64,000 nucleotides of DNA from Betaproteobacteria bacterium (GTDB lineage Bacteria > Pseudomonadota > Gammaproteobacteria > Burkholderiales > SG8-41): contig VGID01000008.1 of assembly GCA_016868035.1 (NCBI GenBank), positions 1 to 64,000 on the forward strand, written 5' to 3'. Both the position numbers and the translations under genes were made by a program. Numbering within the stretch: position 1 is the stretch's first letter; each line of letters opens with the position of its first letter. Below the pieces are notes generated by a model that did not search any database, was not told where the DNA came from, and was given only the letters and a program-made list of their open reading frames with translations. Shown piece after piece: positions 9,706-20,137 of the stretch.

Positions 9706-11997
9706 ATGGAACAGCGTATGTCCCGCCGCGAAGATTTTCGCCTCATCGTCGGAGAAGGCCGCTACACCTCCGACTGGAACCTGCCGGGCCAGCGGCACGC
9801 GGTCTTCCTGCGCTCGGACCGGGCGCACGCCGAAATCGCGCGGCTCGATACGGCGTGCGCGCTGGCTCATCGCGGCGTGAGAGCGGTGCTCACCGGGGAC
9901 GACGCGCGCGAGGCGGGGTACAAGTCGCTGCCCAACATCGTCAGCTACGCGGGGAAGGACGGCCAGCCGCTGCGCAAGCCGCATCACCCGGTGCTCGCGG
10001 CGGGGCGCGTGCGCTACGTCGGCGAGCCCATCGCGATGATCGTCGCGGATTCCGCGGCCCTCGCCGAGGACGCGCGCGAGCTGATCGAGATCGAGTATCG
10101 CGATCTGCCCGCCGTCGCGAGTTTCGAGGCCGCGGTCGCGGAAGGCGCGCCGCAGTTGCACGAGGACGTTCCGGGAAACCTCGCGTTCGAATACGAGTCG
10201 GGCGACGCGCAGGCGGTCTCCGCCGCGTTTGCGCGGGCGAAGCACACGAGCAGGCTCACGATGGACAGCCAGCGGCTGGTCGGCAATGCGCTCGAGCCCC
10301 GCGCCTGCCTCGCGGCGTTCGATCCGGCAAGCGGGCGCTACACGGTGCATCTGCCGCTGCAGGGCGCGAACACCATGCGCGGACAGTTCGAGCACGTGAC
10401 CGGCCTCGACAAGGACAGGATCATGCTGGTCGCGCAGGACGTCGGCGGCAGCTTCGGCGTGCGCGGTGCCGCCTATCCGGAATACTTCGCGGCGATGATC
10501 GCAGCACGCAAGCTCGGCCGCCCGGTGAAATGGGTCGCAACGCGCGGCGAGACCTTCCTGAGCGACTTCCACGGGCGCGCGCTCTCGCTGACCGGCGAAC
10601 TCGCGCTCGATGCGGACGGGGAGTTCCTCGCCATACGGTTCGATGACCGCGCGGACCTGGGCGCGTACGGCGGCACCTTCGGTTCCTTCATCGCGACCCG
10701 CAACCTCACCGTCACGATCGGGGGCGTCTACCGCATTCCCGCCGTCTACGGCCGCACGCGGCTTGCGTACACCAATACCGTTCCGGTGTCCGCGTACCGC
10801 GGCGCCGGGCGCCCCGACATCGCCTACGCGATCGAGCGGCTGGTGGACTACGCGGCCCACGAGCACGGGTTCGACCCGATCAAGCTGCGCAGAAAGAACC
10901 TGATCCCGCGCGAAGCGATGCCGTACAAGACGCCGAACGCGGGGACGTATGACTCCGGGGACTTCGAGGCGGTGATGGACGATGCGCTCGCGCGCGCCGG
11001 CTGGCGCGGGTTCCCCGCGCGCCGCGCTGCCGCGCAGCGCGCCGGGCGGCTACGGGGCATCGGGATCGCGACCTATCTCGAAGCGGGCGGCGGCGGCGCG
11101 GCGCCGAAGGACCAGGTCGCAGTGCGGTTCGATTCGAACGGCGCCATGACGCTCTACGCCGTCACGCAGTCGTCGGGCCAGGGGCATGAAACGGTCTTTC
11201 CGCAGATCGTGGCCGGCGCGCTCGGCATCGACACGAAGCACGTGCGCTTTCATCCCAGCCCGCCGGAGACCGACCTCATCGGCAATGGCACCGGCGGATC
11301 CCGCGGCGTGCTCGGCACGGGCAGCGCATTTCGCCTGCTCGGAGACAAGCTGATCGAGCTCGCGCGCCCGCATGCGGCCGCGGCGCTGGGCGTGCCGGAG
11401 AGCGCGCTGCGCTACGAGCAGGGAATGTTTCGCGCCGCACGACGCTCGATCGGATTCATCGAGCTCGCGCGCAAGCTTGCCGGACCGAAGCCGCATCCGC
11501 TCGACACCATGGCCGAGGGGACGTTCGGCACCACCTATCCGAACGGCTGCCATATCGCCGAGGTCGAAATCGATCCCGAGACCGGGGTCTCCGCGATCGC
11601 GCGCTACACCGCGGTGGACGATCTCGGCCGCGTCATCAATCCGGTGCTGGTCGCGGGCCAGGTACACGGCGGCGTCTTGCAGGGAGCCGGGCAGGTCTTC
11701 GGCGAGCACGCGATCTACGATTCCGCCACGGCGCAGCTGCTCACCGGCAGCTTCATGGACTACGTCATGCCGCGCGCAGGCTGGCTGCGCGAGATCGGGG
11801 TCCACGACCATCCGGTGCCGACGCCGACCAATGCGCTTGGAGCAAAAGGCGTGGGCGAAGCCGGCTGCAGCGGCTCGCTGCCGGCGCTCGTCAACGCGAC
11901 CATCGACGCGCTGCGCCCGCTCGGGATCCGGCACCTCGACATGCCGTTCACGCCGGCGCGGCTGTGGGAAGCGATACGAGGGAGCGGTAAGCGGTAA
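9706..11997 (+). CDS. Xanthine dehydrogenase-family molybdopterin-binding subunit, CoxL form II-like
   Basis: Large molybdenum-cofactor subunit of about 763 residues. Domain signatures include the N-terminal REDFRLIVGEGRYTSD, QDVGGSFGVRG (about 244-254) and, at residues 363-369, AYRGAGR. The last is the signature loop of form II CoxL-type proteins, not the AYXCSFR loop of true form I CO dehydrogenase, so CO oxidation should not be assumed. A GVGEAG segment near the C-terminus supplies the catalytic-type Glu. The matching 2Fe-2S and FAD subunits are not adjacent. The start could be ATG 9706 or 9718. The final residues GSGKR and the stop codon are written by a GCGGTAA repeat array. Confidence 0.85.
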   Translation: MEQRMSRREDFRLIVGEGRYTSDWNLPGQRHAVFLRSDRAHAEIARLDTACALAHRGVRAVLTGDDAREAGYKSLPNIVSYAGKDGQPLRKPHHPVLAAGRVRYVGEPIAMIVADSAALAEDARELIEIEYRDLPAVASFEAAVAEGAPQLHEDVPGNLAFEYESGDAQAVSAAFARAKHTSRLTMDSQRLVGNALEPRACLAAFDPASGRYTVHLPLQGANTMRGQFEHVTGLDKDRIMLVAQDVGGSFGVRGAAYPEYFAAMIAARKLGRPVKWVATRGETFLSDFHGRALSLTGELALDADGEFLAIRFDDRADLGAYGGTFGSFIATRNLTVTIGGVYRIPAVYGRTRLAYTNTVPVSAYRGAGRPDIAYAIERLVDYAAHEHGFDPIKLRRKNLIPREAMPYKTPNAGTYDSGDFEAVMDDALARAGWRGFPARRAAAQRAGRLRGIGIATYLEAGGGGAAPKDQVAVRFDSNGAMTLYAVTQSSGQGHETVFPQIVAGALGIDTKHVRFHPSPPETDLIGNGTGGSRGVLGTGSAFRLLGDKLIELARPHAAAALGVPESALRYEQGMFRAARRSIGFIELARKLAGPKPHPLDTMAEGTFGTTYPNGCHIAEVEIDPETGVSAIARYTAVDDLGRVINPVLVAGQVHGGVLQGAGQVFGEHAIYDSATAQLLTGSFMDYVMPRAGWLREIGVHDHPVPTPTNALGAKGVGEAGCSGSLPALVNATIDALRPLGIRHLDMPFTPARLWEAIRGSGKR

Positions 11998-12225
11998 GCG
12001 GTAAGCGGTAAGCGGTAAGCGGTAAGCGGTAAGCGGTAAGCGGTAAGCGGTAAGCGGTAAGCGGTAAGATTGGAATTGGTTTTTTCCCGAAGTTCCCGCT
12101 CGCTGCTCACGGCTCACGCCTCACGGCTCACGGCTCTTCTTGAAATTCCCGCTCACTGCTTACCGCTCACTGCTTACGGATTTTCTCCTCGCTGCTTACC
12201 GCTCACGACTCACCCGCTACTCTAC
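11984..12225. repeat. (GCGGTAA)12 array with a facing GCTCACG/CTTACCG arm
   Basis: Exactly twelve perfect GCGGTAA units cover 11984-12067. After a spacer containing TTTTTTCCCGAAGTTCCCGC, bases about 12100-12225 carry facing heptads of the forms GCTCACG and TTACCGC. The array supplies the C-terminal codons and stop of the upstream gene. The spacer resembles those at 19930-19965 and 38957-38992. Confidence 0.9.
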
Positions 12226-18091: not shown

Positions 18092-19819
18092 TCAAACCCT
18101 GCAAACGTCCTCGCCGCACCCCAGATCCCGGTCCGCATCGGCGAGCAGCCGCTCGAACGTCTCCGGCACGCGGATCACGCGTCCTTGCACGCTCGGGGAG
18201 TGGGCCTGCAACCAGTAACTGTGAGTCGGGTGCCCGCCGCCGGCGACGACGAGCACGATGTTGTCGGGTTTGAGGCAGATCGGCCACGGGTCGAGCTTGA
18301 TGCTGTCGCGCGTCACCGGGTTGGCGTCGATCTCGATCCACGCCGGTGCGCCGGCGCGGCGCATCTGCTCCATCGGGATCTTCGAGTTCTCCCACAGGAA
18401 TTCGCGGATCGACTTCTGGGTCCAGCCCAGCTCCGCCATCCGGCGCGCCACGATCGGCGCCAGCATCATCATGCCGGGGGTGCCCTTCTCCCAGCCCGCG
18501 AGCGCCGCGAGGTTGGGCGCGCGCATGAAGTCGGCCATGCGCCACATGCCGTTCAGCGCGTCCTCCTCCGGCGACTCCTTCTTCGCGCCGCGGCGCCGCA
18601 CGTTGGTGACTCCGCTCGCGAAGACCACGGACACTGAATTCGTGCCCGGAGCGTATCCATGGCGCTGGGTCGCATGCGGCTGCCATCCGGGCGGGAGCCC
18701 CTCTTCGTCCTCGGCAAATACCGCGTTGGTGTAGCGCATGGCGCCGAAGATCGCCATCGTGCCGACGCCGGGCAGCGCGCCCCCAACGTTCTGCTGCAGA
18801 AGGCGCAGCGCGCGCCCGATGCTCGCGCCGGCCGGCCGCTGCGGGTCCGGCCCGAGCAGTCCGAAGCCGGAGTTGAGCCGGATCTGCTTTCCGATCGGCC
18901 CGTTGACGATGACGGCCGGGAACGGCGCGCCCGACGTCGCCTGCAGCTGGTCGAAGCCGTTTGCCGTGTCGAAGCACGCCTCCACGGCGGCGACGAGGAC
19001 CGGCAGGTATTCCGGGCGCCCGCCCGCCATGGCAAGCGCGATCGCGCAGGTCTCGATGGTCGTGATGCCGCCGCGCGGCGGGAACTTGCCGAGCACGTGC
19101 TCGCGCGGGAGCGCCGAGCCCCGGAGTATCCAGTCCACGCGGCTCTTCGTCGCCGGCCACAGCGGGAGCCCGTCGCCCCACAGATTGGTGAGCAGCAGGT
19201 TGTTGGCCTTGACAAGCGCCTCTTCGTAGCTCTCGCCTTCGACGGCGAGCATCGGGCTTGCATTCACCGCCGGCACGAGGCTCGAACGCCAGCTCGTTAG
19301 GCCGTCGTAGAACTCGCGCTTGCGCTCCGCAAGGGCGGTGAGATCGCTCCCCGGCAGGAACATGCGGATCGGAAACGTGACCATCGCCGCGTCCGGCGCG
19401 AGCCCGATCCCGGACACGGCGTTCTTCATCACCCCGACGAAATCCGTCCGCGTCAGCGTGACGGTCGGGATACCCAGCGCTTCGATCCTAGCGGCTGCAC
19501 GGCCGCATGCTGTGGCGCAGGCCCCTCAAGCCGCGTTCCCGACGATGACCGCATCGACCCCGCTCTTCTTCACCAGCCCGGCGGTCTCCTCGGTGCCGAT
19601 CAGGGCGTTGCCCTGGGGGTAGGCGTCGATCGGCAGCACGGTGATGCCCGGAAAATCCTGCTCGAGCATCTCCTTCAGCAGCGGCAGCATGCGGTAGGCC
19701 TGCCATTGCTCGTTGCTGATGAAGCCGATGCGCTTGCCCTCGAGCGAGGCGAGCCGCGGCGCGTGCGGATGAGTCACCTCGAGCGCACCGGAGGGATCGT
19801 GGAATTCGAGCTTTACCAT
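18092..19819 (-). CDS. UGSC-motif selenoprotein, in-frame UGA read as selenocysteine
   Basis: A 575-residue protein emerges if the UGA at 19528-19526 is read as Sec98. The upstream part (residues 1-97, ending DAVIVGNAA) and the part after the UGA (GACATACGRAAARIEALGIP onward, then KNAVSGIGLAPDAAMVTFPI) are in one frame without another stop until 18092. The redox motif is Sec98-Gly-Ala-Cys101, a variant of the UGSC/CGSC motif of a selenoprotein family predicted from genome and metagenome surveys. AAGGAG precedes the ATG at 19819 by seven bases; no ribosome site precedes the inner GTG 19432. The C-terminal 400 residues are an uncharacterised conserved-looking domain. It leads the operon with cyclase, acyl-CoA dehydrogenase and ADH. 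A Sec-decoding apparatus must exist elsewhere in the genome; none is in the window. Confidence 0.82.
19501..19523 (-). promoter_or_regulatory. Candidate bacterial SECIS hairpin directly after the UGA
   Basis: On the minus strand, two bases after the UGA, GGCC (19523-19520) pairs with GGCC (19504-19501). A bulged U (19519) follows, then GCG pairs with UGC, and an 8-nt loop CCACAGCA closes it. A hairpin with a bulged U just downstream of UGA resembles bacterial SelB-binding SECIS elements. Folding was done by eye. Confidence 0.4.
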
Positions 19820-20137
19820 AAATGCTCCTTAGAGCCAGTAACAGGATCAAGAAATACTAGCCGCAGATAAACGCCGATCAAAATCGAGTAAGGCGTGAGC
19901 GGTGATCAGTGAGCAGAAAGTCCGTAAGCAGTGAGCGGGGAACTCCCCGGAAAAACCGGGTCCAATTCTACCGCTTACTGCTTACCGCTTACCGCTTACC
20001 ATCTTCACGTTCATCGGCGGTTTCATGCTCTTTGGATCTTTTTGATACGGGCTCTCAGCGACCCGCGTCATATTGAAGCAGTGACGAATACGAGTGACGA
20101 TTGCGGGTGACGCGCTTCGGTGAAGGTTGACTGACTC
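19820..20137. repeat. Gene-free gap with 12-bp-type repeats and TTACCGC heptads
   Basis: This 318-bp stretch upstream of the selenoprotein operon holds no evident gene. It contains GCAGATAAACGCCGATC (about 19862-19878), then a GTAAGCAGTGAGCGGGGAAC segment, a CCGGAAAAACCGGGTCCAATT spacer, TTACCGC-type heptads (about 19971-20000) and GTTCATCGGCGGTTTCATG (about 20009-20028). It is a reversed copy of the element found at 11984 and 38866. The selenoprotein promoter should lie in its left part. Confidence 0.7.

Follow-up and report, generated by a model that had tools for sequence, protein, structure and literature searches.

A probable two-part selenoprotein of the UGSC family with an apparent relation to the GrdB and PrdB reductases

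On the minus strand of a 64,000-nt stretch of betaproteobacterial DNA (the window), the frame running from 19819 to 18092 is interrupted only once, by a TGA at positions 19528 to 19526. Does this triplet separate two genes, or is it read as selenocysteine (Sec) within a single one? A sequence-only reading had favoured the second answer, pointing to the common phase of the flanking frames (19819-19529 and 19525-18092) and to a strong ribosome-binding site ahead of the upstream part. Translation confirmed that the two frames make up one frame of 575 residues with nothing but the UGA between them, and an AAGGAG sequence does precede the ATG by 5 bases. Two separate genes, already thought unlikely in that reading, are further argued against by homologs that continue past the UGA and by the Pfam UGSC model, which spans the junction. 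The homologs that cover the junction comprise both Sec and Cys forms; it is not the case that all end at the UGA. Coordinates of the relevant features are collected in Table 1.

Table 1. Features of the selenoprotein gene in the window and location of the Sec machinery genes in the genome from which the window derives (G000).
Feature	Position	Strand	Basis or remark
Selenoprotein gene, ATG to TGA stop, 575 residues with predicted Sec98	18092..19819	(-)	translation and homologs
Ribosome-binding site AAGGAG, 5 bases before ATG	19825..19830	(-)	read from sequence
N-terminal UGSC domain, Pfam PF24696, residues 7-150; predicted Rossmann-like	19370..19801	(-)	Pfam match and model
UGA codon 98, predicted to be read as selenocysteine	19526..19528	(-)	conserved UGA; Cys in L089, L092
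Cys101 of UGxC motif	19517..19519	(-)	Cys in 76/80 aligned proteins
SECIS-type hairpin GCGGC-CGUGCA-GCCGC, loop 25-30 bases after UGA	19491..19506	(-)	codon conservation and pairing
C-terminal domain, also a stand-alone gene; confidently modelled, no clear solved relative	18179..19246	(-)	homolog hits and model
selA	C4:33967		genome G000
selB	C4:35207		genome G000
tRNA-Sec, anticodon TCA	C4:38521		genome G000, same contig as selA and selB
selD, in-frame UGA in HGGGUGC	C65:3698		genome G000

A match to the window protein was found in each of the 74 genomes of the same family that were searched. All 29 best-matching ortholog loci (L030-L058) carry a UGA at codon 98, and one of them (L034) has a second UGA near the end of the gene. 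Within the window genome, seven UGSC matches lie above the Pfam cut-off, with exactly one TGA in each; an eighth match is weak (13.9 bits) and has no TGA. A wider sample, formed by the window and loci L059-L158, yielded 137 UGSC-domain hits, 122 with a TGA, 6 with a Cys codon and 9 with neither; the loci behind these hits partly overlap, and the TGA sites include 119 distinct ones. All 122 TGA sites stand in a U-G-x-C context, the third residue being Ser at 82 sites, Ala at 18, Gly at 14, Asn at 4, Thr at 2, Leu at 1 and Arg at 1. The UGAC motif, which had been singled out as a variant, is indeed present in the window protein but is an ordinary one for the family, given the 18 sites with Ala. 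Of the Cys forms, the two nearest to the window protein are L089, at 62% identity, and the Variovorax locus L092, at 59%; both read CGAC. When 80 proteins were aligned, position 98 was found to be Cys or Sec in 75 and neither in 5, and Gly99 was present in all 80. Altogether, these comparisons indicate that the UGA at codon 98 is kept beyond chance.

UGA means stop by default and the window comes from a draft assembly. One could thus envisage a short peptide holding a UGSC fragment followed by an unrelated gene, a pseudogene, or a sequencing error. The UGA is kept, however, in the best 29 ortholog loci and in 122 of the 137 domain hits, relatives carry Cys in its place, the sel machinery is complete (see below) and the Pfam model crosses the junction, all of which makes an ordinary stop extremely improbable. 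On sequence grounds, the conserved UGA and the junction-spanning homologs rule out this explanation, a sequencing error included.

Two further observations concern the sample itself. L109, L125, L127 and L135 hold UGSC homologs that lack both Sec and Cys at position 98; several of these homologs stand in pairs or rows, and they are perhaps regulatory or degenerate copies. Records L084, L088, L097, L115, L131, L148, L150, as well as L130 and L158, are titled Bordetella parapertussis or Chitinophaga pinensis, titles that look like automatic mislabels.

The search for selA, selB, selC and selD that the sequence-only reading had called for returned all four in the window genome (3.9 Mb in 127 contigs, 98.3% complete). 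The components by which a bacterial selenoprotein is judged, SelA, SelB, SelD and tRNA-Sec, are all encoded there. Among 28 genomes of relatives, SelB scores over the cut-off in 18 of the 21 that have a UGA locus, in two of the three that have neither form and in one of the four that have a Cys locus, this last being the Variovorax genome.

Sequence comparison also supports the presence of a hairpin with a conserved loop directly 3' of the UGA. In the clade of the window, the stem is 5 bp long and pairs GCGGC with GYCGC around CGUGCA or CGUGCU; among 13 distinct sequences, a single one has CGGGCG instead. With a pairing register picked after the sequences were seen, all 65 cells for the five inner pairs of these 13 sequences are paired, and 17 of the 26 cells for the two outer pairs are broken. 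The codons of stem and loop are nearly invariant across 35 sequences, window included (TGC 35/35, GGC 35/35, CGT 34/35), with GCC used in all 28 sequences that retain Ala. Paralogous clades have another stem and another spacing, with compensatory changes. A second clade shows pairing in 240 of 312 cells, as compared to 18-41% in slid controls, and G-C pairs are swapped to C-G at third codon positions; in a third clade, 95 of 102 cells pair and one slid control reaches 70%. As read from the sequences, the Cys forms L089 and L092 keep at most three of the five pairs of the window-clade stem. A crude test of stem length found at least 8 pairs at 49 of the 119 distinct sites versus 10% of synonymous shuffles; by the longest-stem measure, the window hairpin itself does not exceed its synonymous shuffles (p 0.946). 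The excess of synonymous conservation peaks in windows that begin 4-5 codons ahead of the UGA, with one beginning at +3 in second place, and hence this measure alone does not single out the hairpin. No Rfam match was obtained in the 121 bases around it. Elsewhere between genes, arrays of the heptamer AGCGGTA (either strand) are found at 11983-12068 and 19969-20000 of the window, one of them just upstream of the selenoprotein gene.

The results described so far support the view that the frame encodes one selenoenzyme with Sec at codon 98; by all comparison, the product would be a real selenoprotein of a known family. The UGSC-type motif noticed at the join was borne out by the Pfam match, which covers residues 7-150, crosses the UGA and scores 72.5 bits against a cut-off of 25. 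With the NCBIfam model NF041046 the protein scores 44.3 bits, below the equivalog cut-off of 125, and it is thus a member of the wider Pfam family rather than of the narrower equivalog; with the same model, a short paralogue in the window genome scores 152 and another paralogue 113. The protein shares with the UGSC family the UGxC motif, a Pfam match over cut-off and the fusion to a larger domain, and differs in its equivalog score and in having Ala as the third residue of the motif. Predominance of the Sec form is also common to both, with 255 Sec to 21 Cys forms in the table of the 2008 survey (PMC2398784) and 122 to 6 here. That survey, by Zhang and Gladyshev, reports UGSC fused to a domain named "Unknown_1", and ranks UGSC with the most common selenoprotein families of ocean and freshwater (GOS) samples, with the highest frequency in non-marine ones (PMC2398784). 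Since the fusion has been in print since 2008, the selenoprotein is not new in kind. The novelty of the gene itself is modest; the interest lies in the link to GrdB/PrdB and in the scale of the expansion described below.

The 2008 survey called the UGSC fold likely thioredoxin-like (PMC2398784). An AlphaFold2 model made from 80 homologs (mean pLDDT 94.2, pTM 0.94) does not support such a fold. Structures matching residues 23-182 mostly have Rossmann-like, receiver or binding-protein folds, the best match (Z 9.9, rmsd 2.7, 123 aligned, over residues 29-180) having a moderate score for a common arrangement. Thioredoxin folds are absent among the matches listed, though such absence excludes no family. 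In the model, Sec98 lies between strand 90-96 and helix 99-114, with Cys101 one turn further on, and the domain looks Rossmann-like, not thioredoxin-like. This bears on an alternative in which the selenoprotein is a thiol/disulfide or peroxide oxidoreductase, Sec98 and Cys101 acting as a UxxC redox pair. UGxC is a motif of this type, Cys101 is found in 76 of the 80 proteins, and the proposal agrees with the fold suggested in the 2008 survey (PMC2398784). However, the confident model looks Rossmann-like, the homology is to GrdB/PrdB and a large conserved partner domain would better suit an enzyme acting on a substrate. We consider the oxidoreductase alternative to be rather unlikely, if still credible.

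Homology to GrdB and PrdB became apparent at several levels of comparison. At E ≤ 0.1, the NCBIfam model for PrdB was matched by 36 of the 80 members, that for GrdH by 20, GrdF by 19 and GrdB by 16, with a best E value of 2.1e-4 against PrdB; PF07355 was not among the families matched by the 80 members at this threshold. Profile-profile comparison with six GrdB proteins, five of them from one genome, gave a probability of 96.5 and a score of 69, single-pair values not calibrated against a database, with Sec aligned on Sec. Masking the motif left the probability at 93.5 and the score at 54, while control scores were 10-21 for 20 column-shuffled profiles and 13-18 for 6 unrelated families. A reverse scan was made with two GrdB proteins, one of which (L211) matches the UGSC model over its Sec domain (E 1.4e-4, 22.4 bits, cut-off 25). 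The window protein on its own scores 13 bits with the GrdF, GrdH and PrdB models, whose cut-offs are 300-800, and the window genome has no full-length GRDB match, only a 120-residue match lacking a UGA. Judged from these alignments, the Sec domain of UGSC is homologous to the Sec-bearing domain of component B of glycine, sarcosine and betaine reductase (GrdB, GrdF, GrdH) and of the D-proline reductase protein PrdB. The six GrdB-type proteins likewise carry a UGA, set in UGT[CSG]. The window protein differs in that it lacks the long N-terminal part of GrdB and has a partner domain that is not GrdE-like. Within a limited search of the literature, the homology between UGSC and GrdB was not found in print.

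GrdB genes with an in-frame UGA were seen at L206-L211 (genomes G237 and G239), most of them next to a gene of the Gly_reductase (GrdE) type; five GrdB genes are found in G237, an assembly from a deltaproteobacterium. Apart from the loci with full-length GRDB, L159-L205 hold mostly short frames of about 145-240 residues that match only the last part of the GRDB model and have no UGA. These short frames possibly represent a branch between GrdB and UGSC.

The large C-terminal domain that had been noticed in the window protein proved to be real. Its distribution was analyzed in 112 full hits (window and L079-L158): 87 are fused to a UGSC domain, while the other 25 share no open frame with one. 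In 17 of the 25 a UGSC domain lies within 600 bases on the same strand; in 4 of these 17 it lies downstream, a reversed order which argues that such pairs are not broken fusions. As to the others, a fused gene precedes the hit by 1.4-1.8 kb in 5 cases, a UGSC domain lies about 1 kb away in 2, and a contig end truncates the remaining one. Since the domain can also be encoded on its own, in most cases close to a UGSC gene, the window protein looks like a fused two-part enzyme. At L104, L111, L114, L123 and L136 there is, behind a fused UGSC gene, one more C-domain gene standing on its own, as though the domain could also function by itself. The C-domain model is confident (pLDDT 94.3). Structure searches with it returned no clear solved counterpart, the best values being a Foldseek E of 0.094 and a Z of 4.6, and when a profile of the fused proteins was run against PDB sequences, no hit had an E below 0.53. 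Among the conserved features are W214, D216, G217, P222, M264-A265-G266, G307-P308, G335-R336, E370, W379 and G527. We think that Unknown_1, as presented in the 2008 survey (PMC2398784), is this same domain. Profile-profile comparison of the C-domain with six confirmed Gly_reductase (PF09338) proteins gave a probability of 0.1. A GrdE-like C-domain thus finds no support, the one member in 80 that matches PF09338 (E 0.078) being taken as chance. With no detectable relation to GrdE, half of the reductase analogy is missing.

Attack by a selenolate with expulsion of a leaving group has been proposed for glycine and D-proline reductases. The explanation that we favour, if by a small measure, is that the UGSC protein is a Sec-inserting, two-part enzyme related to GrdB/PrdB that cleaves its substrate reductively; reductive cleavage of a small organic compound by a Sec nucleophile would be its most likely function. 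UGA codon 98 would be read as selenocysteine by SelA, SelB, SelC and SelD, aided by the downstream hairpin. The N-terminal domain, Rossmann-like in the model, would share its ancestry with the Sec-bearing domain of GrdB/PrdB. By analogy, the selenolate of Sec98 would attack a carbon of the substrate, expelling the leaving group, and Cys101, together with an outside dithiol, would free the product and reset the site. The role of a GrdE/PrdA-type subunit, to bind and position the substrate, would fall to the C-domain, for which no relation to GrdE was detected. Paralogues would differ in substrate, perhaps acting on small organic acids. It counts against this explanation that the known enzymes of the glycine/proline reductase type act on amino acids and are mostly found in anaerobes, and that no substrate is indicated here. 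Alternatively, the same Sec domain could cleave a bond other than C-N, such as C-S, C-O, C-halogen or carbon-metal. The relation to GrdB/PrdB indicates how Sec may attack, not which group leaves, and the 52 copies in one genome (see below) suggest many different substrates; nothing specific, however, points to any of these bonds, and we hold this alternative to be unlikely.

Genes near the selenoprotein gene in the window encode a cyclase, an acyl-CoA dehydrogenase, two TctC receptors, an enzyme of the mandelate racemase type and a short-chain dehydrogenase, which fits catabolism of small organic compounds. These neighbours recur in part at 20 ortholog loci (L079-L098): an NHL protein strongly at 2, the racemase-type enzyme strongly at 1 and the cyclase at none. 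A Bug/TctC receptor lies in the examined flanks of 14 of the 20. A link to these receptors was rejected, since the window genome has at least 150 Bug/TctC receptor genes in its 3.9 Mb, a count from scoring 150 of 240 candidates, and the distance between UGSC and receptor genes, tested on the five contigs of that genome with UGSC genes, was not significant (p 0.07 for the mean, 0.44 for the median).

UGSC matches number from 1 to at least 40 per genome across the 74 family genomes. In another genome of this family (G050; 5.7 Mb, 98% complete, 2% contamination), where all 124 candidates were scored, 57 UGSC matches were identified, of which 52 contain a single TGA as their sole stop, 2 contain a TGA along with other stops, and 3 have no TGA. 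The 52 are domain matches rather than verified whole genes, the TGA having been confirmed within the motif for two (L073). By comparison, 33 UGSC selenoproteins from 26 organisms are listed in a genome survey of 2016 (PMC5029168), and among the whole bacterial selenoproteomes that a 2026 review names, the largest count 57 and 63 genes, all families included (PMC13188914). The 52 UGA-bearing matches come close to these two totals, and such genomes thus appear to devote a large part of their selenium to a single unexplained chemistry. The literature search found no assigned function or biochemistry for the UGSC family; the homology to GrdB/PrdB, the two-part build and the genome with 52 matches go beyond what was found in print. 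The GrdB/PrdB link and a defined partner domain turn an "unknown" protein into a testable enzyme hypothesis. Tentatively, UGSC may constitute a third branch beside GrdB and PrdB, one that would perform Sec-dependent reductive cleavage with a partner domain of its own, of unsolved fold, and that would occur in several phyla and in dozens of copies per genome, acting on many small organic substrates.
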